In this document: piece after piece, positions 3,981-49,137 of the stretch
Layout: every line of letters begins with the position of its first letter
How positions within the stretch are numbered: position 1 is the first letter of the stretch
From: Pseudomonadota bacterium
GTDB taxonomy: Bacteria; Pseudomonadota; Alphaproteobacteria; Acetobacterales; Acetobacteraceae
Reading direction: 5' to 3'
DNA: 64,000 nt
Assembly (NCBI GenBank): GCA_021809435.1
Contig: JAKBAD010000001.1
Span: forward strand, 682,001-746,000
Made by a program: the position numbers and the translations under genes
The notes under the pieces: generated by a model
Seen by the model: the letters and a program-made list of their open reading frames with translations, nothing else
Database searches by the model: none
Told to the model about the DNA's origin: nothing

Positions 3981-5609
3981 GCCCGCCGCCGCCACCAGCG
4001 TGCCGGCGGTGAGCCGCCAGATACGGTCGAGCTGCTCGGCGCCGGTGAGCCGGTGCAGGATGAGCAGCACGGTCCGCCCCTCGGTGGCGGCGTTGAGCAC
4101 GCGGAAGAACTCCTGCTCGGTGGCCGAATCCAGCCCCGCGCAAGGCTCGTCGAGCAGCAAGATCGGCGCGTTCATCAGCAGCGTGCGGGCCAGCGCCAGC
4201 CGCCGCCCCTGCCCGCCCGAAAGCGTCGCCCCGCCTTCGCCCAGCCAGGCATCGAGCCCCTCGGGCAGCGCGCGCACCACATCGGCCACTTGGGCGGCCT
4301 CCAGCGCCGCCCACAGCGCGGCGTCATCGGCGGCGGGGTCGCCAATGAGCAAATTATGGCGGATGGTGTCGGCGAACAGATGCGTGGTCTGCCCCAGATA
4401 GGCGATGCGGTGGCGCACGGCCTCGGTGGGCAATTGCGCGATGTCGGTGCCCCCCAGCCGGACCTGCCCCTGTTCAGGCGCATGCAGCTTGAGCAACAAC
4501 GCCGCGATGGTTGATTTCCCCGCCCCCGACGGCCCCAAAATGGCCACCCGCGTGCCCTGTGCCACCTGCAGGGAGAGCTCCTCAAACACATAAGGCCGGT
4601 CGGGGGCATACCGAAACGCGACATGCTCGAACGCAATGGCATTGCGAGACGGCATGGGCGCGGGCGAGACCGGCTCAGACACAAGCGGCGCGCTCTCGGC
4701 CGCCTGTACCACGCGCGCGGCCGCCGCCTTGGCCTGGCCATAAAGCAGCCCGGCGCGCGGCAGGCCGAGCACGGCCTCGAACGCCACGCCCAGCACCAGC
4801 ACCGCCGCCACGGCTGGCACCTTGGCCCCCGTGAATCCCAGCATGATTGCCGCCAGCACCCCCGCCTGGGCGAGCAAAAACCCATAGGCGTTGAGCGCCG
4901 AGCCCTTGTGCGTCAACTCGCGCTGGGCGCTGAGCAGGGCGGCCTCGCGCGCCTGAATAACCGCCAGCATCCGCCCCTCGGCCTCAAAAATCTTCACTTC
5001 GCGCAGACCGTGCAGCATGTCGAGCACGCTGGTGCGCAAGCCGCTCATGGCCAGGCCGGCCTTGGCCGCGTTCTCCCCCGCCGCGCGCGCGGTCAGAACC
5101 GGCAAATAAAAGCCAATCACCACCAGCGCCAGCAACACAATCAGCGCCGCCGGCTGCTCGCGCCACAACACCGCCGCCACCACCGGCACCAACACCAGCG
5201 CGCCAAGCAGCGGCACCATCAGGCGCAAAAACAGCCCATCTAGCGTATCCACGTCATTCACCAGGCGCGAGAGCGCATCACCCGCACGGCGAAACCCCAG
5301 CCCGCCCGCGGCGCTGGCCGCCAGCCCCTCGAACATCCACACGCGCAAATTGGCGAGCGCGCGAAAAATCGCCTCATGCCCAACCACGCGCTCAAAATAG
5401 CGCAGCACCACGCGGGCCGTGCCCACCAAGGGCAGCAGCGCGGGCACGGCCAACATCATCCCCAGCAGGCCAAGCGCCAAAAACCGCCCCGAATAGAGCG
5501 AGAGCGTGACATTGGCCAGCAGCGCGGCCAGAGACAGCAGCACCGCCGCCATCAGCCAGCCCCAAAACCGGGTCCAGAGCGAAAAAATGCGCAGGATCGG
5601 GTTCATCAT
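3978..5609 (-). CDS. cydC: Thiol reductant ABC exporter subunit CydC
   Basis: The protein has an N-terminal six-helix ABC exporter domain and a C-terminal ATPase with Walker A GPSGAGKST, signature TLSGGQGRRLALAR and Walker B ILLLDEP. With CydD it exports cysteine/glutathione to the periplasm, which is needed to assemble cytochrome bd and c-type cytochromes. ATG 5609 is preferred because GGGAG lies five bases before it; a GTG at 5615 would give a GTGA overlap with cydD. The stop codon lies in a palindromic element. No cydAB is seen here. Confidence 0.88.
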   Translation of the reverse strand: MMNPILRIFSLWTRFWGWLMAAVLLSLAALLANVTLSLYSGRFLALGLLGMMLAVPALLPLVGTARVVLRYFERVVGHEAIFRALANLRVWMFEGLAASAAGGLGFRRAGDALSRLVNDVDTLDGLFLRLMVPLLGALVLVPVVAAVLWREQPAALIVLLALVVIGFYLPVLTARAAGENAAKAGLAMSGLRTSVLDMLHGLREVKIFEAEGRMLAVIQAREAALLSAQRELTHKGSALNAYGFLLAQAGVLAAIMLGFTGAKVPAVAAVLVLGVAFEAVLGLPRAGLLYGQAKAAAARVVQAAESAPLVSEPVSPAPMPSRNAIAFEHVAFRYAPDRPYVFEELSLQVAQGTRVAILGPSGAGKSTIAALLLKLHAPEQGQVRLGGTDIAQLPTEAVRHRIAYLGQTTHLFADTIRHNLLIGDPAADDAALWAALEAAQVADVVRALPEGLDAWLGEGGATLSGGQGRRLALARTLLMNAPILLLDEPCAGLDSATEQEFFRVLNAATEGRTVLLILHRLTGAEQLDRIWRLTAGTLVAAAG

Positions 5610-5611
5610 CT

Positions 5612-7288
5612 TCACTCCCGCCAGCTCGTGTAGCGCAGCGCGTCGAGATCGACCCGTCTGGCGCCTATGGTTTTGGCAAAATCCATGGCCATGCTGGAAT
5701 GCGTGGCCAGCACCACCGTGCGCCCCAGGGCCAGATGGCGCAGGCTTTCCAGCACATCGCGCTCAGTGGCGGGGTCGAGATGCGCGGTCGGCTCATCGAG
5801 CAGCAGCAGAGGGGCATTTTTCAAAAACGCCCGGGCAATGGCAATGCGCTGCGCCTGCCCGCCCGAGAGGCCAAACCCGCCCTCGCCCACCTGGGTTTGC
5901 AGCCCCTTGGGCAGGTTGTTCACCAGCTCTTGCAAATGCGCCCAGCGTACCGCGTCGGCGAGTTCGGTATCGGAGGCGGCGGGGTTGCCAAAGCGGATAT
6001 TCTCCTCGATCGTACCGGCGAAAATCACCGGCTTCTGGCCAATCCAGCCGATCATCTTGGCACGCGCCGCCGGCACCAGCGCCTCGAGCGAGGCGCCATT
6101 GACCGTGATCTTGCCCGCCTGGGGCTCCACAAACCCCAAAATCAAATCCATGATGGTGGATTTGCCAGCCCCCGAGGCGCCGGTCAGCAGCAAAATCTCC
6201 CCCTTGCCCACCCGGAAGGAGAGCTGGTCGAACACCGGCCTGGCCTCGTCCCAGCCATAGGAGACATGATCGAACGAGAGCAGCACGCCATGGGCGGCGA
6301 CCGAGCGGATTTCGGCGGGCTTGGCGGGCGGCGGCAGGGTGGGCAGGGCGGCGAACTCATCGGCCACCGCCTCGACGGCCATGCGGTCGGCGTAAACGGC
6401 CGAAAAGGCGCGCAGCGGCGCGAAAAACTCCGGCACCAGCAGCAGCATGAACAAGGCTATGGGGGCGAGCGCCTCATCCCCCCGCACCACGCCCAGAAAG
6501 CGCACCACAATCAAAATCATGGCCGCCGCCGCCGCCAGATCGAGCGCGGTGGAGGAGAGAAACGCCACCCTCAGCACGCGCATGGTGCGCACGCGCAACT
6601 CATCGGCGGCCTCGCGCAGCGACGCCGCCTCCTCCCGCGCGCGCCCGGCCAGCACAATGGTCGAGATGCCGCGAATGCGGTCGAGAAACCGCACCTGCAG
6701 CCGGGTCATGGCCAGAAATTGCCGCCGCGCCGCGAGCGCCGCGCCAATGCCCGCCACCGCCATGGCAAACGGCACGAACAGCCCGGCGACGATCAGCACC
6801 AGCCCTGCGCGCCAATCGGTGTGCAGCGCCACCAGCCCAATCAATCCCGGCCCAATCACCGCCAGCGCCGTGGCGGGAACCCAGCGGGCATGGAACCCGT
6901 CCATGGCCTCCACGCGGTCAATGGCGGTGGCGGCCAGCTCGCCCGAATGGCGCCCGCGCAAGCCCGCCGGCCCAAGCCCCAGCAGCGCCGCCAGCACCTG
7001 CCCGCGCAACCGCCGCCGCGCCGCCGCGCCCAGCTCGAAATTCTGCCGCTCGGCCAGCAACGCCAAATAAGCCCGCGCCAGCGCGGCGGCCACAAACCCG
7101 GCGCCCGCGGCGGCCAGCGCCGCGCCACCAGAAGCCAAATGCAGCACGCCCGCCAGCAGCCGCGCCGCCGCGGCAGCCTGCGCAATCGCGCACAACGTGC
7201 CCGCCGCCCCCAGCGCAATGGGCACTCTCGCCGCCCGAAACCCCAGTTTTTGCTCGGCCTTAACCCACGGCTTGCTATGCGTGCTCAT
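5612..7288 (-). CDS. cydD: Thiol reductant ABC exporter subunit CydD
   Basis: The 558-residue protein is a half ABC exporter: a membrane domain to about residue 310 with the RHSGELAATAIDRVEAMDGF segment typical of CydD, then an ATPase with GASGAGKST, FGLSGGQAQRIAIARAF and LLLLDEPTAHLD. It forms a heterodimer with CydC, whose gene follows at once. ATG 7288 starts the frame cleanly. It is divergent from panC, separated by about 120 bases that must hold both promoters. Confidence 0.9.
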   Translation of the reverse strand: MSTHSKPWVKAEQKLGFRAARVPIALGAAGTLCAIAQAAAAARLLAGVLHLASGGAALAAAGAGFVAAALARAYLALLAERQNFELGAAARRRLRGQVLAALLGLGPAGLRGRHSGELAATAIDRVEAMDGFHARWVPATALAVIGPGLIGLVALHTDWRAGLVLIVAGLFVPFAMAVAGIGAALAARRQFLAMTRLQVRFLDRIRGISTIVLAGRAREEAASLREAADELRVRTMRVLRVAFLSSTALDLAAAAAMILIVVRFLGVVRGDEALAPIALFMLLLVPEFFAPLRAFSAVYADRMAVEAVADEFAALPTLPPPAKPAEIRSVAAHGVLLSFDHVSYGWDEARPVFDQLSFRVGKGEILLLTGASGAGKSTIMDLILGFVEPQAGKITVNGASLEALVPAARAKMIGWIGQKPVIFAGTIEENIRFGNPAASDTELADAVRWAHLQELVNNLPKGLQTQVGEGGFGLSGGQAQRIAIARAFLKNAPLLLLDEPTAHLDPATERDVLESLRHLALGRTVVLATHSSMAMDFAKTIGARRVDLDALRYTSWRE

Positions 7289-40271: not shown

Positions 40272-40778
40272 CTATTGCGCCATCATCCCCTCGGCCATCT
40301 CCTGCACATGCGCCTCTGGCATCAGCGCCGGAATCGAGACAATGGAGATGATCCGGTTATCGAACATGATCAGCCCCTCGATATAGGTTCCCGGCGTGGT
40401 ATCGCCGGTCTCGGGGGTTTTCTGGCGCATATCGTCGGTGACGGTGATGATATCGCACACCGCATCCACCAGCAGCCCCGCCACGCGCGCGCCATCTTCC
40501 ACCACCACCACCACCGAGGCGGCATTGGGCTCGGCGGGCGGCAAGCCCAGCCGCTCGGCCAGATCAATCACCACCAGCACCGTGCCGCGCAAATTGATCA
40601 TGCCCTTAATGAAAGACGGCGCATGGGCCAGATGCGTCGAGGCGATCCAGCCGCGTATTTCGCGGATGGAGCGTATATCCATGGCGAATTCCTGCGCGCC
40701 AATCCGCACCGAGAGCAATTCCATGCTCCGCTCTCCTTGCGCTAAACTCCGTGTCTGCATCATGTTTGTTTGCGTCAT
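40272..40778 (-). CDS. cheW: Chemotaxis adaptor CheW (second copy, operon end)
   Basis: The 168-residue protein has the CheW fold: LLSVRIGAQEFAMDIRSIREIRGW, SFIKGMINLRGTVLVVIDLAERLGLP, and VAGLLVDAVCDIITV. CheW couples receptors to CheA. ATG 40778 has AGGAGG five bases upstream; an ATG at 40799 overlaps the preceding gene. It is the last gene of the chemotaxis operon, 24 bases after the CheZ-like gene. A different CheW is encoded at 43731. Confidence 0.92.
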   Translation of the reverse strand: MTQTNMMQTRSLAQGERSMELLSVRIGAQEFAMDIRSIREIRGWIASTHLAHAPSFIKGMINLRGTVLVVIDLAERLGLPPAEPNAASVVVVVEDGARVAGLLVDAVCDIITVTDDMRQKTPETGDTTPGTYIEGLIMFDNRIISIVSIPALMPEAHVQEMAEGMMAQ

Positions 40779-40802
40779 GCGCCCCTCCTCACACCGCATC
40801 GC

Positions 40803-41180
40803 TCAAAACAGCTCCAATTCACCCGACTGATGCCCCTTCTCCTGCGGTTCCGGCGCGCCCTTGAGCCGATATTGCAAATCCGACAACGTAATGTTGTTCA
40901 ACGCATGCTGCGAATTCACCGCCCAGTCATCGGGCAACAGCTTGCCAATGGTGAGCACATATTTCGACAAGGCCGCCAGTCTCTGCGCCAACAAATCAAG
41001 CGACTGCACATCCCGGTGGCAGGCCGAATCCTTCGCCACCTGCATCAGTGCCGGGCTGAGCGTGGTCTGGAACTGTTCGGTAAACCGGCCAAGCTCGTGA
41101 AACTCCTCGCCCAAAGCTTCGAGAATCGAATTGAGCGAGGCATGGTGGCGCTCATCCTCACACCCCCGGACTGCAATCAT
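40803..41180 (-). CDS. Small helical chemotaxis protein, candidate CheZ/CheT-like CheY-P phosphatase
   Basis: The 125-residue protein is almost entirely helical by composition. I do not recognise a named family, but residues 57-68 (DVQSLDLLAQRL) hold D62-x-x-x-Q66, the arrangement of the catalytic Asp and Gln of CheZ (DLTGQ). The C-terminus SGELELF is acidic-hydrophobic, as are CheY-binding tails of CheZ. ATG 41180 has GGAG seven bases upstream. It lies between cheD and cheW. The operon lacks cheZ, cheC and fliY, so a phosphatase is expected. Function is inference. Confidence 0.6.
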   Translation of the reverse strand: MIAVRGCEDERHHASLNSILEALGEEFHELGRFTEQFQTTLSPALMQVAKDSACHRDVQSLDLLAQRLAALSKYVLTIGKLLPDDWAVNSQHALNNITLSDLQYRLKGAPEPQEKGHQSGELELF

Positions 41181-41264
41181 ATCGCCTCTCCACTCACCCT
41201 GGCCCCCGCGCATTCCGCCGCGCCCGCCAAATATCGCGCCCGATACTTAATGTTTTCCCAAGCC

Positions 41265-41828
41265 TCAAAACAATTCCACCGCCCCCGAAGGCACCGGCGC
41301 CGGCCGCGCGCGCTCGGCGTGCAAAATCTGCTCGGTTTCCTTGGCCAGCAGCACCTGGCGCGCCCGCCCCGAAACCGGCCAAAACTGAATCCGCCGCCCC
41401 TGCTCACCGCGCAGCGAGCCGCCGACCAGCAAAATTCCCTCCTCGCGCAAAAACTTCTCCGCGAAATTGGCATTCAACTCGCCAATATCGGTCAGGCCCT
41501 TAATCATCCGCGCGCCGCCAAACAGCTTGGCGCGCATGCGGCTTTTCACCGCCCCCCGGCGCAGCAGCCCGTTCACCAGCAGCTCCATGGCATGCACGCC
41601 AAAACGCATGGCATCACCGCCCGGCTGGCGGTGCCGTCCGTCTCCTGGCAGCAAAAAATGGTTCATCCCGCCCACGCCCGCCACGCCATCCCATATGCAA
41701 GCGGCAATACACGAGCCCAAAATGGTGGTCAGCACAGTGTTGGGGTCGTCATCCACATAATGCTCCCCCTGCACGATGTTAATTTTCTTCTCATGCGGCG
41801 CCAGCCCCGCGCCCACCCCCGCGCTCAC
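41265..41828 (-). CDS. cheD: Chemoreceptor glutamine deamidase CheD
   Basis: The 187-residue protein deamidates glutamines in chemoreceptors, adjusting their methylation sites. The catalytic set fits: T34, C40 in TTILGSC, and H57 in GGMNHFLLP, with the spacing known for CheD. The start is GTG 41828, overlapping the cheB stop (GTGA). The protein ends PSGAVELF; the next gene's product ends SGELELF, an unusual similarity. Confidence 0.93.
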
Positions 41829-42862
41829 AACACATGCTCCTTGAGCTGCGCGTTGGTGATCCCCAGCACCCGCTCGGCGATCCGCTCCAGCGGCAATTGC
41901 CGCGCCACCGCCCCCAGCTCAAACGCCGCGCGCGGCATGCCATATACCACGCAGCTCGCCTCATCCTGGCCAATGGTCTCGGCGCCCGCCTCGCGCATGG
42001 CCAGCAGCCCCGCCGCCCCATCGCGCCCCAGCCCGGTCAGAATAATTCCCACCGCGCGCGCGCCAAAAGCTTTGGCAACCGCGTGAAACATCACATCCAC
42101 ACTCGGCCGGTGGCCATTCACGCGCTCACCCTCATTCAGCCGCAGCACGGCATTCACCGCCCCGCTCACCTCAATATGCGCGTTACCCGGCGCCAGATAA
42201 ATCCGCCCCGCCGCCAGCCTGTCGCCCTCCACCGCCTCGCTCACCTGGGCGGCGCATAATTTATCCAGCCGGGCGGCGAAGCTTTTGGTAAAGGTCGCCG
42301 GCATGTGCTGGCTGATGATGGTGGGCGGGCAGTTGGCGGGAAATTTCGAAAGAATGGTGATCAGCGCCTCCACCCCGCCGGTCGAGGAGCCAATCGCCAC
42401 CACCCGGCCATCGGGCGCATATTGGCCGCCACTTCCCGCGCGAGCCGGCGCGGGCCGGGCTGGGGCATGGCGCACCCGTCCCATCGCCGCCGCCTTCACG
42501 GTCGCCGCCAGGCTGGCAAAACTATCGGGGTTGAATGAAGACGGCTTGGCCACGCAATCAAACGCCCCCAGCTCCAGGGCGCGCAAATTCACATCCGCGC
42601 CTTTTTGCGTCAGAGTCGAGACCATCACCACCGGCATCGGCCGCAGCCGCATGATTTTTTCCAAAAACTCCAGCCCGTTCATATTGGGCATCTCGATATC
42701 AAGGGTCACCACATCCGGCGACAGCGCCTTAATCATCGCCCGCGCCTCCAGCGGCTCGGCCGCCTGCCCCACCACCTCAATCCCGGGCTCAGCCCTCAGC
42801 GCCGCGGCAATCACCGCGCGCATGGTCGCCGAATCATCCACAATCACCACCCGCACGGTCAT
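41825..42862 (-). CDS. cheB: Chemotaxis methylesterase/response regulator CheB
   Basis: The 345-residue protein has a receiver domain with phospho-acceptor D55 in [13 protein letters not shown], a linker, and a methylesterase domain with catalytic serine in [11 protein letters not shown], the histidine in SQHMP and the aspartate in GLGRDGAAG. It removes receptor methyl groups when phosphorylated by CheA. It overlaps cheR and cheD by four bases each. Confidence 0.96.
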
Positions 42863-43734
42863 GCCCGGCCTCCCGCGCTTTGTTTCCGATAAATGGTAAT
42901 GCCATCGTTCTGAAATTGCGGCTCGGCCGCCCCCGTCACGCGCTCCGAATGGCCGATATAGAGCGCACCGCCCTCATCGAGCAGCGGCAAAAACCGCGAC
43001 CACACCATCTCCTGTGTCTGGCCATCAAAATAAATCACCACATTGCGGCAAAAAATCGCCTGAAACTTCGCCTTCATCGGCCAGTTGCCAATCAAATTGA
43101 GCCGCTTGAAGCTCACCAGCCGCCGCGCCTCGTCGCTCACCCGCCAGCGCCCATCTGGCATCCGGGCAAAATGGGCCTTGCGCATGGCGGCCGGCACGGC
43201 GTCGAGCAAACTCTCCTCATAAATTCCCGCCTCACCCTCGCGCAGCATGTTGGGGTCAATGTCGGTGGCCAGAATCTTCACATCAAACCGCGCCGCATCG
43301 GGCATCACCTCCAGCAGGGTCAGCGCCATCGAATAAGCCTCCTGCCCCGAGGAACATGCCGCCGACCACAACCGCACCCGCCCGCCGCCGCGCGCGAATT
43401 GCGCCATGCCCGGCAACATCCTGGCTTTCAAATGCTCAAAATGATGCGGCTCACGAAAAAACCGCGTGACATTGGTGGTCAGCGCCGCCAGCATCTCCAT
43501 GCGCTCGCCCTCACCATCGGGGCTTTGAATCAACCGGCAATATTGCTCAAAATTTTCCAATCCCAGCTTGCGCAGCCGCTTGGCCAGCCGCGAATACACC
43601 AAATTCGCCTTGGCCCCCGTCAGGCTCACCCCCGTCTCGCGGCGCATGATCTCGGTGATCACCTCCAGGTCGCGCGCGGTGAACACAAACTCCGAATTCT
43701 CAACAATGCTGCGCTCAGCAAGGTGTTGGCTCAT
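42859..43734 (-). CDS. cheR: Chemotaxis protein methyltransferase CheR
   Basis: The 291-residue enzyme methylates receptor glutamates with SAM. It has the N-terminal helical domain ([25 protein letters not shown]), then [27 protein letters not shown] for SAM binding, and [16 protein letters not shown] 43734 overlaps the upstream cheW stop. The beta-subdomain that binds receptor pentapeptides in some CheR proteins cannot be judged by eye. Confidence 0.96.
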
Positions 43735-44207
43735 GCCACCTCCAACTCCGCCGCCGGCAACACGTTATCGAGCGTAATCAGGCTGATCATCCGCCCATCC
43801 ACCGGCAGCAGCCCCTTCACGAAACTCTTGACGAGATCGGAACAAACATCCGGCGAGGGCTGAATATTCCCATCCGACGCGGTCAAAATATCCGAAACCG
43901 CATCCACCAACAGCCCCACCTGCTTCTGCGCCACCTGCACCACAATAATCACATTGCGCGCGGTGGGCTCGCTGCCCGGCAGCCCCAGCCGCACGGCCAA
44001 ATCCACAATCGGCAGCACGGCGCCGCGCAAATTAATCACGCCCTTCACATAGCGCGGCGCGCGCGGCAGCGCGGTGGCCGCCGTCCAGCCGCGAATTTCG
44101 CGCACCATCATCACATTAATGCAGAATTCCTGCTTCCCGACCCGAAACGCGATCAACTCGCGGTTGCCCTTGTCGCTGGGCTTTTCCGTTTGCGCCGAAC
44201 TCTCCAT
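43731..44207 (-). CDS. cheW: Chemotaxis adaptor CheW
   Basis: The 158-residue protein has [52 protein letters not shown] and [14 protein letters not shown], the CheW beta-barrel pattern. ATG 44207 is chosen since the earlier ATG at 44231 lies inside the end of cheA. It is the canonical CheW next to cheA and differs clearly from the copy at 40272. Confidence 0.94.
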
Positions 44208-44220
44208 GGCCCACCGCCTC

Positions 44221-46425
<2,205 letters not shown>

Positions 46426-46439
46426 GCGCCCCTCCTGTC

Positions 46440-46805
46440 TCAGGCCGCCACGCGGCGTATGGCCTCAACCAGCTTCACCGGGTCAAAAGGCTTCACAATC
46501 CAGCCTGTTGCCCCGGCCGCCCTGGCGCGGTTTTTCTTCTCGGCGTCCACCTCCGTGGTCAGCACCAGCACGGGCGTGGCGCGCCTGGCCTCATCGGCGC
46601 GCACGGCCTCGATAAACCCAAACCCATCCATGCGCGGCATATTAATGTCAGTAACAATAACGTCCGGCGTCTCGGTCTCCAGCACTTCAAGCCCGTGCAG
46701 CCCATCCTCGGCCTGAATAACCCTAAACCCCGCCGCCAGCAGCGAGTGGCGCAGCATGTCGCGCATCGCCCGCGAATCATCAACGGTGAGTACCGTGGTG
46801 GTCAT
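46440..46805 (-). CDS. cheY: Chemotaxis response regulator CheY
   Basis: The 121-residue single receiver domain has the acidic pocket VDDSRAMR (D9, D10), phospho-acceptor D53 in VIVTDINMPRMDG, LTTEVDAEKK and the conserved lysine in WIVKPFDP. Phosphorylated CheY binds the flagellar switch. ATG 46805 overlaps the STAS gene stop (ATGA). It lies 14 bases upstream of cheA. Confidence 0.94.
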   Translation of the reverse strand: MTTTVLTVDDSRAMRDMLRHSLLAAGFRVIQAEDGLHGLEVLETETPDVIVTDINMPRMDGFGFIEAVRADEARRATPVLVLTTEVDAEKKNRARAAGATGWIVKPFDPVKLVEAIRRVAA

Positions 46806-47101
46806 TCCCCAAACTCCTTGCCAGCCAGGGGGGCACGGTGCGCCAAATCGGCGGCACACACCCCCATCAATTCCAAATTCGCGGCAAACTCCTCCGAGGG
46901 CGCCGCCACCGCGAACGGCACATCATCGGCCGCCCAGGCCCGGCTCGCGGCCAGCAGCACCTGCAAACATTGCCCCCCCAGCCGCTGCACGCTGGCGCCG
47001 TTCACCACCAGCGCCTGGCCCCTGCGGCCAGTAAAAGCCTCCAGCAGCCCCGGCGCCGCCACCAAATCCAATATCGCCGGCAATTCCAACCCTTCCGTCA
47101 T
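46802..47101 (-). CDS. STAS-domain protein at the head of the che operon
   Basis: The 99-residue protein fits a STAS fold: LDLVAAPGLLEAFTGRRGQALVVNGASVQRLGGQCLQVLLAA resembles the pattern where the phosphorylatable residue follows a beta strand (here NGASVQRLG). STAS proteins in che operons are seen in several alphaproteobacteria, with unclear roles. ATG 47101 is used; an upstream TTG lacks a better ribosome site. It couples to cheY by ATGA. Confidence 0.75.
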   Translation of the reverse strand: MTEGLELPAILDLVAAPGLLEAFTGRRGQALVVNGASVQRLGGQCLQVLLAASRAWAADDVPFAVAAPSEEFAANLELMGVCAADLAHRAPLAGKEFGE

Positions 47102-47151
47102 CGGTCTCAACTTTCGGGGCTAATGAATAAAATTCCGCTAAGAGGCGCGGC

Positions 47152-49137
47152 TTAAAACTCGTCCCAATCCTCAGCCCCGGCCGGGCTCTTGGGCAGGCTC
47201 ACAAACTTACCCACCGGCGCCGAGGGCGCGGCCAAACTCGCCATCCGCGCCGCCGGTTTTGTCGTGGCGGCGGGCATTGCGCCGCGCCCGCTCCTGGTGG
47301 CGGTGGCCTTGGCCTTGCGCGCGGGGCTGGCTGGCGCCTCCCCCCCCTGGCCAATTCTAAACTGCCCAACCAGCCGCCCCAGCTCATCCGCCTCGCTGGC
47401 CAGCGCATGGCTGGCCGCCGTGCTTTCCTCCACCATGGCGGCGTTTTGCTGGGTCACCTGGTCCATCTGGTTCACGGCCGAGTTCACCTCCGCCAGCCCG
47501 GTCGCCTGCTCACCCGCCGAGGCCGCAATATCGGCGATCAGCGTATTCAGCTGGTTCACCTGCTCAACAATGCGCGTCAGCGCCTCGCCGGTTTCGTTCA
47601 CCAGCCGCACGCCCGTCTCCACCTGCGCGCCCGAGGTCGAAATCAGCGCCTTAATCTCCTTGGCCGCATCGGCCGAACGCTGGGCTAGCGCGCGCACTTC
47701 GGTCGCCACCACCGCGAATCCGCGCCCGGCATCGCCCGCCCGCGCCGCCTCCACGCCCGCGTTCAGCGCCAACAAATTGGTCTGAAAGGCAATCTCGTCG
47801 ATCACCCCAATGATGTTGGAAATCTGGCGAGAAGACGCCTCGATCCCGCTCATCGCCGTCACCGTGTCGCTCACCACGCCGCCCGACCGCTCGGCATCCT
47901 CGCGCGCCCGGCTCACCACCTCACGGGCCTGGTGCGCGCCCTCGGCGCTCTTGCGCACGGTGGCGGTAATCTGGTCGAGCGCTGCGGCGGTTTCTTCCAG
48001 GCTGGCGGCCTGCTGCTCGGTCCGTCGCGAGAGATCATCCGAGCTCTGGGTAATCTCCGCGGCCGACGCCCTCACCCCCTGGGTATTGGCGGCAATCGCC
48101 TGCATGGTCTGCTGCAGCGTATCCTGCGCCTTGTTAAAATCCCCGCGCAGCTTCTCATATTCGGGCGCAAAGGCCGCCTGGAGCCTAAACATCAAATCCC
48201 CGCCCGAGAGCCGCTCCAGCCCATCCGCCACGCCATCCACCACCTGCGAGAGCTGGGCGCGCGCGGCCTCGCGCTCGGCCGCCGCCGCCTCGCGGGCACG
48301 GGCCTCGGCCTCGGCGGCGCGCTGCGCTTCGGCCTCCAGCGCCCGCTTTTCCTCGGCGGCTTCCTTAAAGCTCTGCACCGTGCGCGCCATCTGGCCAATC
48401 TCATCGCGCCGCCCGGTCTCCACCCGCGCCCCCAAATCCCCCCGGGCAATCCGCCCCATCACCTCACGCAAACCATTAAGTGGCGCCACCACCCACAGCT
48501 TGAGCATCATGAACGCCGCCCCCAGCACGGCCAGAAACACCAGCGCCATCACCCCCAGCGTCACCGTCACGGTTTGGTTGGCATTCACCGCCTGGGCCTG
48601 CAAATCCCGGCTCAGTTCGGCCCGAAGGTTGCGCGCCTCCCCCTGAATCATCGGCGTCAGCTGATCGATCTGCGGCCGGCAATTGGCCAGATATTCCTGC
48701 TGCCCGGCCTCGTTCTCCGCCACCGAGGTGGCGGCCTCCGCCATCTGCACGGTCTTGGCGCACGCGGTCCCAAACACCTCGTCGCCCTGCTGCTTAATCC
48801 CCATCAGCGCCGAGGCCTCGTCCGGCAAGGCCTGGGCGGCGTCGCTCAGCGCGTTGTCAAACACGTTCAGGCTGGCGCGGATTTCATTGCCCGCCGCCAG
48901 ATTATCGCTATCGCTGGTGGTGATCAGATCAAAGCTGATCGCCGCCCGCTCCTGCTGCGCGGCCCGGTTGGCCTCCGCCGCATCACGCGCCGCCCTGCCG
49001 ACGCTGCTATTGAGCGCGATCGCCTCCTGGCTGATCGCATGCATCTGCATGCCCGAAAATACCGAAGCCCCGAGCGCCGCGACCCCGGCCACCCCTAAAA
49101 TGAGCAGAAACTTGACAATGATCGGCAGATTTTTCAC
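47152..49137 (-). CDS. Methyl-accepting chemotaxis protein with CheR/CheB-type C-terminal pentapeptide
   Basis: The 661-residue receptor has a membrane helix (about 6-27), a periplasmic four-helix-type sensor (28-185) with two cysteines (126 and 153), a second helix (190-213), HAMP, a coiled coil, and the signalling tip [20 protein letters not shown]. The C-terminus is DWDEF after a flexible Ala/Pro/Lys linker; W-x-x-F matches NWETF, the docking site for CheR and CheB. The start is GTG 49137 with GGAAG five bases upstream. The ligand is unknown. Confidence 0.93.

Follow-up and report, generated by a model that had tools for sequence, protein, structure and literature searches.

A divergent CheT homologue with an invariant DxxxQ pair in an Acetobacteraceae chemotaxis operon: a candidate CheY1-P phosphatase

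The window analysed here, a stretch of 64,000 nucleotides from an Acetobacteraceae bacterium, carries a chemotaxis operon on its minus strand in which the genes follow the order MCP, STAS protein, cheY, cheA, cheW, cheR, cheB, cheD, cheT and cheW. The first gene (47152-49137, family match and translation) encodes a chemoreceptor ending in DWDEF and is followed by a cheS homologue with a STAS domain (46802-47110; family match, and 38% to S. meliloti CheS by BLASTP) and by cheY (46440-46805), whose product, on BLASTP comparison, is the orthologue of CheY1 (71% to S. meliloti CheY1 and 36% to CheY2). Family matches likewise identify cheA (44221-46425), cheW (43731-44231), cheR (42859-43734, of which residues 26-282 match 1bc5), cheB (41825-42862) and a second cheW (40272-40799), while cheD (41265-41828; Pfam CheD, 1e-23) encodes a protein that ends in GAVELF, a tail of the same kind as that of CheT. 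The genome also encodes FliM, which makes a flagellar motor probable, and the relatives found for this locus indicate Acidocella as the genus.

The ninth gene, at 40803-41180 on the minus strand (coordinates including the stop codon), had been picked out in the sequence-only reading as a 125-residue protein lying between cheD and the last cheW, with a D62-L-L-A-Q66 motif and the C-terminus ELELF, and the open reading frame, its position and both sequence features are all as described there. The codons of the motif occupy 40983-40997 and those of the tail, which resembles a receptor pentapeptide, occupy 40806-40820, both on the minus strand; the plus-strand reading of the same interval is unrelated to the cheT protein. 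A good ribosome-binding site (GGAGAGG) lies 4 bases before the ATG at 41180, and a longer ATG is available at 41213, a place at which no start codon exists in a relative of 93% identity.

No Pfam family was found for the 125-residue protein at E-values up to 1, and its one NCBIfam match was to the CheT model NF047973 (E = 4.3e-7, residues 12-108), at 30 bits against a curated cut-off of 200 that S. meliloti CheT exceeds with 225.5 bits. This model is narrow: in two samples of alphaproteobacterial genomes, 0 of 385 and 0 of 195 exceeded its cut-off. In a ten-protein BLASTP set, the protein is 25% identical to S. meliloti CheT over 121 columns, with the DxxxQ motifs in register (QSLDLLAQ on QGIDLAVQ, which places D62 and Q66 on D57 and Q61) and with SGELELF aligned to AGDFEAF, so that both proteins end in G-[DE]-hydrophobic-E-x-F; CheD is 51% identical to its S. 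meliloti counterpart in the same set. The window gene and CheT of S. meliloti and Agrobacterium, the closest known system, also agree in following cheD, in length (125 and 124 residues) and in the company of CheS and CheY1. Gene order in the S. meliloti record (L023) is that of the window with one addition, cheY2 between cheB and cheD, giving a common order of MCP, cheS, cheY1, cheA, cheW, cheR, cheB, (cheY2), cheD and cheT; the window differs in having no CheY2 in the operon and a CheT that falls far below the family cut-off. These profile and pairwise alignments place the protein in the known CheT family as a divergent member, and the resemblance to rhizobial CheT put forward in the sequence-only reading was correct. 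In the available part of a review, CheT is described as having a DXXXQ motif and a predicted resemblance to CheZ, as speeding the dephosphorylation of only one of two CheYs and as forming a complex with CheR, and homologues are named in S. medicae, R. leguminosarum, C. crescentus and Hoeflea (PMC12654446). The suggestion that the protein is a phosphatase of this lineage does not hold in that form, as the family also occurs in Rhizobiaceae, in Acetobacter and in two other sampled orders and is listed for C. crescentus (PMC12654446), and is therefore not peculiar to the lineage.

The operon had further been thought to lack a CheY-P phosphatase of a known type, and across the whole genome neither CheZ (PF04344) nor the CheC family (PF04509) was matched, while CheZ was matched in 109 of 289 genomes of the class. 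CheT shares with CheZ a DxxxQ on a helix and, presumably, the chemistry on CheY-P, but identity with CheZ was rejected. PF04344 was not matched, and hhalign against a profile of 30 alphaproteobacterial CheZ gave a probability of 2.4% (E = 0.019) with the motifs out of register. The available text of one source gives AxxFQ before the DxxxQ of CheZ (PMC7750401), whereas the window protein has HRDVQSL before D62, and it is 125 residues long against 214 in E. coli CheZ. The proposed likeness of its tail to the CheY-binding tail of CheZ was not upheld: the pattern Q-x(1-2)-[IVL]-D-x-[ILF], chosen after CheZ tails were seen, occurs in the last 20 residues of 30/30 alphaproteobacterial CheZ and 0/78 CheT, and the CheT tail is more like a receptor pentapeptide. 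With the CheC, CheX and FliY phosphatases, CheT would share the role only, the families being different.

Two further CheY-like receivers stand alone in the same genome, and next to each comes a different small DxxxQ protein, so that CheT need not be the only receiver phosphatase. One of these receivers, R2 (G000:C6:403542-403883), precedes a 149-residue protein with a D...Q motif (locus L032, G000:C6:398000-409000, the pair at 5063-5890; relatives in L141-L154). This R2 partner, in which most relatives carry the motif RQDFARQIADC, was found in 15 of 41 sampled genomes, the genome itself included, with D and Q kept in 16/16 aligned sequences, a paralogue included. It has no family at Pfam or NCBIfam cut-offs and its hhalign probability against CheZ is 0.3%; perhaps it is another receiver phosphatase. 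The paralogous pair (locus L030, G000:C3:27000-38000, at 4893-5683) consists of a receiver and a 133-residue protein with LQAQQLDMARQ, which matches the R2 partner at E = 3e-8 by BLASTP in a four-protein set.

When the window CheT was shuffled 20,000 times, 41% of the copies contained a DxxxQ motif, and the motif alone is therefore not evidence. Its conservation was assessed in 78 aligned sequences, comprising the window, 25 loci of the Acidocella group (12 of them named Acidocella, including A. aquatica, A. facilis and A. aminolytica), 48 order-level loci, two class-search loci, S. meliloti and Shinella. The 48 came from two order-level searches in which 20/195 and 53/200 genomes matched, the remaining matches staying outside the set, while class-wide searches matched only 3 of 385 genomes each, the genome itself included. 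The set shrinks to 67 sequences when clustered at 90% identity, to 46 at 60% and to 38 at 40%. D62 is D and Q66 is Q in 78/78, a count possibly somewhat biased as the gathering profiles contained DxxxQ, and these are the only fully invariant columns; Q59 follows with 77/78 and E26 with 72/78. The columns M1, A49, L61, L102 and G108, invariant in the seed, fall below 75% in the wide set, while D62 and Q66 do not. Both residues are thus kept in all homologues compared, one of the points on which the sequence-only reading had staked its proposal, and DxxxQ is more than a chance occurrence. Among 24 sampled relatives of the same genus, 18 encode cheT, all with D and Q, and the six without a match come from assemblies of 77-93% completeness. 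The motif also appeared where genes were chosen by position: in two Acetobacter plasmids, the ORFs picked solely by their place after cheD contain LQ..D...Q in both cases (LQGMDVGTQ and LQKLDSATQ), and they then match the CheT profile at 9.9e-12 and 4e-8 among 2948 ORFs.

The description of the protein as helical was borne out by an AlphaFold2 monomer model (26 sequences, the window and 25 loci), which forms a helical hairpin of H16-48 and H52-81 with a disordered tail, at moderate confidence (pLDDT 69.5 for the best model and 45.2 for the worst of five). D62 and Q66 lie in the second predicted helix and, being four residues apart, should share one face of it on general helix geometry. Foldseek returned 0 PDB matches at E <= 0.001, the best (E = 0.75) being generic helical hairpins and histidine-kinase helices, and CheZ was absent from the best 50 of 140 matches; in a profile search of PDB sequences the best match was a designed coiled-coil barrel (E = 0.0018).

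S. meliloti CheT reportedly acts on CheY1-P and not on CheY2-P, and the genomic company of cheT bears on which regulator would be its target here. No CheY2 orthologue was found in the genome, where the best matches to CheY2 are the window CheY (36%) and a 37% receiver that matches CheY1 better (47%). Across the Acidocella group, cheD follows cheB without cheY2 in 24 of 25 loci, and the remaining locus (L060) has a broken CheY1-like stretch between the two genes. Of 50 loci sampled outside this group, in other genera, 48 have a CheY2-type receiver near cheT (within 1.5-kb flanks), all but L065 and L089, in the arrangements cheB-cheY2-cheD-cheT or cheR-cheY2-cheT, which could point to CheY2 as the partner. 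The two plasmids of Acetobacter, which belongs to the family of Acidocella, carry CheS-like, CheY1, CheY2, CheD and CheT-like genes. Where CheY2 is missing, in the Acidocella group, CheT stays with CheS and CheY1, and the simplest reading of these gene neighbourhoods is that CheY2 was lost and CheT kept with CheY1, which agrees with CheY1 as the CheT substrate. As a separate observation, in 15 of these 50 loci the gene immediately after cheT encodes a further CheY-like receiver, only distantly related to the CheY queries (24-37%) (L090, L092, L093, L096-L099, L101-L104 and L106-L109).

Taken on sequence comparisons, the most likely role of the window CheT is that of a phosphatase for CheY1-P, perhaps held close to the adaptation enzymes, and the probability that it is a divergent CheT orthologue acting on the CheY1-P of its operon, in a CheZ-like manner without being CheZ, is put at roughly 0.75. 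In the proposed mechanism, the small helical hairpin would dimerise into a four-helix bundle, D62 and Q66 would be presented from the second helix to the phosphorylated D53 of a CheY1-type regulator, and loss of phosphate from CheY1-P would be sped up in the manner of CheZ.

The tails of CheT and CheD suggest a further layer. In the receptor pentapeptide consensus, as given in the available text of one source, positions 2 and 5 are W and F and the remaining positions are acidic (PMC7390727). Like NWETF-type receptor pentapeptides, CheT and CheD present a hydrophobic residue, an acidic residue, any residue and F at the C-terminus, but they differ in having mostly V, L, F, C or I for the usual W, and ELELF accordingly has the F at position 5 and L in place of Trp at position 2. 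In the fetched loci, C-terminal hydrophobic-[DE]-x-F, a pattern chosen after the tails were seen and counted over many related loci, occurs in 54/78 CheT, 52/57 CheD and 18/27 receptors, compared with 0/339 CheS, CheY, CheA, CheW, CheR and CheB proteins, of which 1/339 ends in F. Counted by distinct last-eight residues, the figures are 36/60, 37/42 and 16/25 for CheT, CheD and receptors, and with one CheT per 60% cluster the pattern is found in 24/46 and a final F in 34/46; only 1/30 CheZ matches. S. meliloti CheT ends in DFEAF. CheD carries such a tail also in records with no recognised CheT (GDVELF in Novosphingobium and DDVELF in Vibrio), while an Aeromonas CheD is without it.

These tails underlie the most probable of the rival explanations, itself judged somewhat unlikely: that CheT is mainly an adaptation-side scaffold whose tail docks to CheR and/or CheB, as that of CheD would, with phosphatase activity secondary. 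The tail counts and the complex of S. meliloti CheT with CheR described in the available part of the review (PMC12654446) favour it, but the fully invariant residues are the DxxxQ pair only and not the tail, and a final F is lacking in 13 of 78 CheT and in the CheT-like ORFs from two Sphingomonadaceae records. The CheR beta-loop may also count against docking, as it is short in the window (12 residues versus 15 in S. meliloti, and 12-14 in 23 CheR of the Acidocella group), and short loops are associated with organisms lacking pentapeptide receptors in the part of the source available (PMC3062574); the operon's own receptor nevertheless ends in DWDEF. A tentative extension, which is rather less probable than not, is that the CheT and CheD tails mimic the receptor docking pentapeptide, so that phosphatase, deamidase and receptors would compete for, or be gathered by, CheR and/or CheB, with Acidocella, having CheY1, CheS and CheT without CheY2, as a minimal form. 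No published statement of this pentapeptide-like tail was found in a literature search that lacked most subscription papers.

It is improbable that CheT is a CheY-binding modulator that has kept the fold without the catalysis, with D62 and Q66 structural and CheY1-P sequestered. The effect of CheT on CheY-P decay is reportedly modest, about twofold, which would suit such a role, but a D and a Q that never vary at a spacing of four residues, amid drift elsewhere, fit catalysis better than packing. The prospect that CheT serves another receiver, for example R2, in place of the operon CheY is similarly slim: 13 of 14 fetched loci keep R2 at 88-98%, and an R2-like receiver (recognised by eye, with sequences for L057 and L061) precedes the operon MCP in L057-L059 and cheS in L061, but in those 13 loci a DxxxQ protein of its own adjoins R2, and CheT is encoded with CheY1 and CheS. 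That the protein is helical but unrelated to CheT, and its DxxxQ a product of chance, is hardly credible, given the homology to CheT and the invariance of both residues, even though so many shuffled copies contain it.

CheT-like or weakly similar proteins were also observed in or near che operons of plasmids. In the two Acetobacter plasmids (L155, 2153-2356 and 8565-8945; L156, 2222-2488 and 8621-9007), genes labelled 'hypothetical' or 'cheX' resemble those for CheS, with its STAS domain, and CheT. ORFs near che genes in Sphingomonadaceae plasmids (L160, 6327-6641; L028, 8230-8811) contain LQAIDLIGQ and LQAFDLIVQ, match the CheT profile at E = 2.7e-6 and 2.1e-5 among 2948 ORFs and do not end in F. 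A Vibrio sp. plasmid (L159, 6566-7762) encodes, right after cheD and cheB, a receptor-like protein with LQFTDIIVQ and the ending GEVELF, whose last 127 residues match the CheT profile weakly (domain E = 0.016 among 2948 ORFs) and which may represent the fusion of a receptor with a CheT-like module; proteins of this type occur in only three Vibrio plasmids of the plasmid collection, and in the L159 record cheD ends in DDVELF and another receptor in DEWEEF. A 153-residue che-operon protein of a Comamonadaceae plasmid (L157, 582-1043), with LQSEDALVQ and the ending AGSIDLF, reaches only E = 0.65 on the CheT profile and has no other record in the plasmid collection.

In the literature available, work on CheT concerns S. 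meliloti, and the review names homologues in only a few further species (PMC12654446). The present comparisons suggest that its proposed catalytic pair is the signature of a diverse alphaproteobacterial family mostly missed by the curated model, and they add the occurrence of CheT with a CheY1 orthologue in a genome where no CheY2 was found, as well as the pentapeptide-like tails of CheT and CheD. A genus in which CheT and CheY1 occur and CheY2 cannot be recognised lends itself to a natural test of the CheT target, and through the tail common to CheT and CheD the way in which CheT might meet CheR can be tested specifically and cheaply. If the proposed mimicry is real, it would explain the reported binding of CheT to CheR and would physically link signal termination to adaptation.
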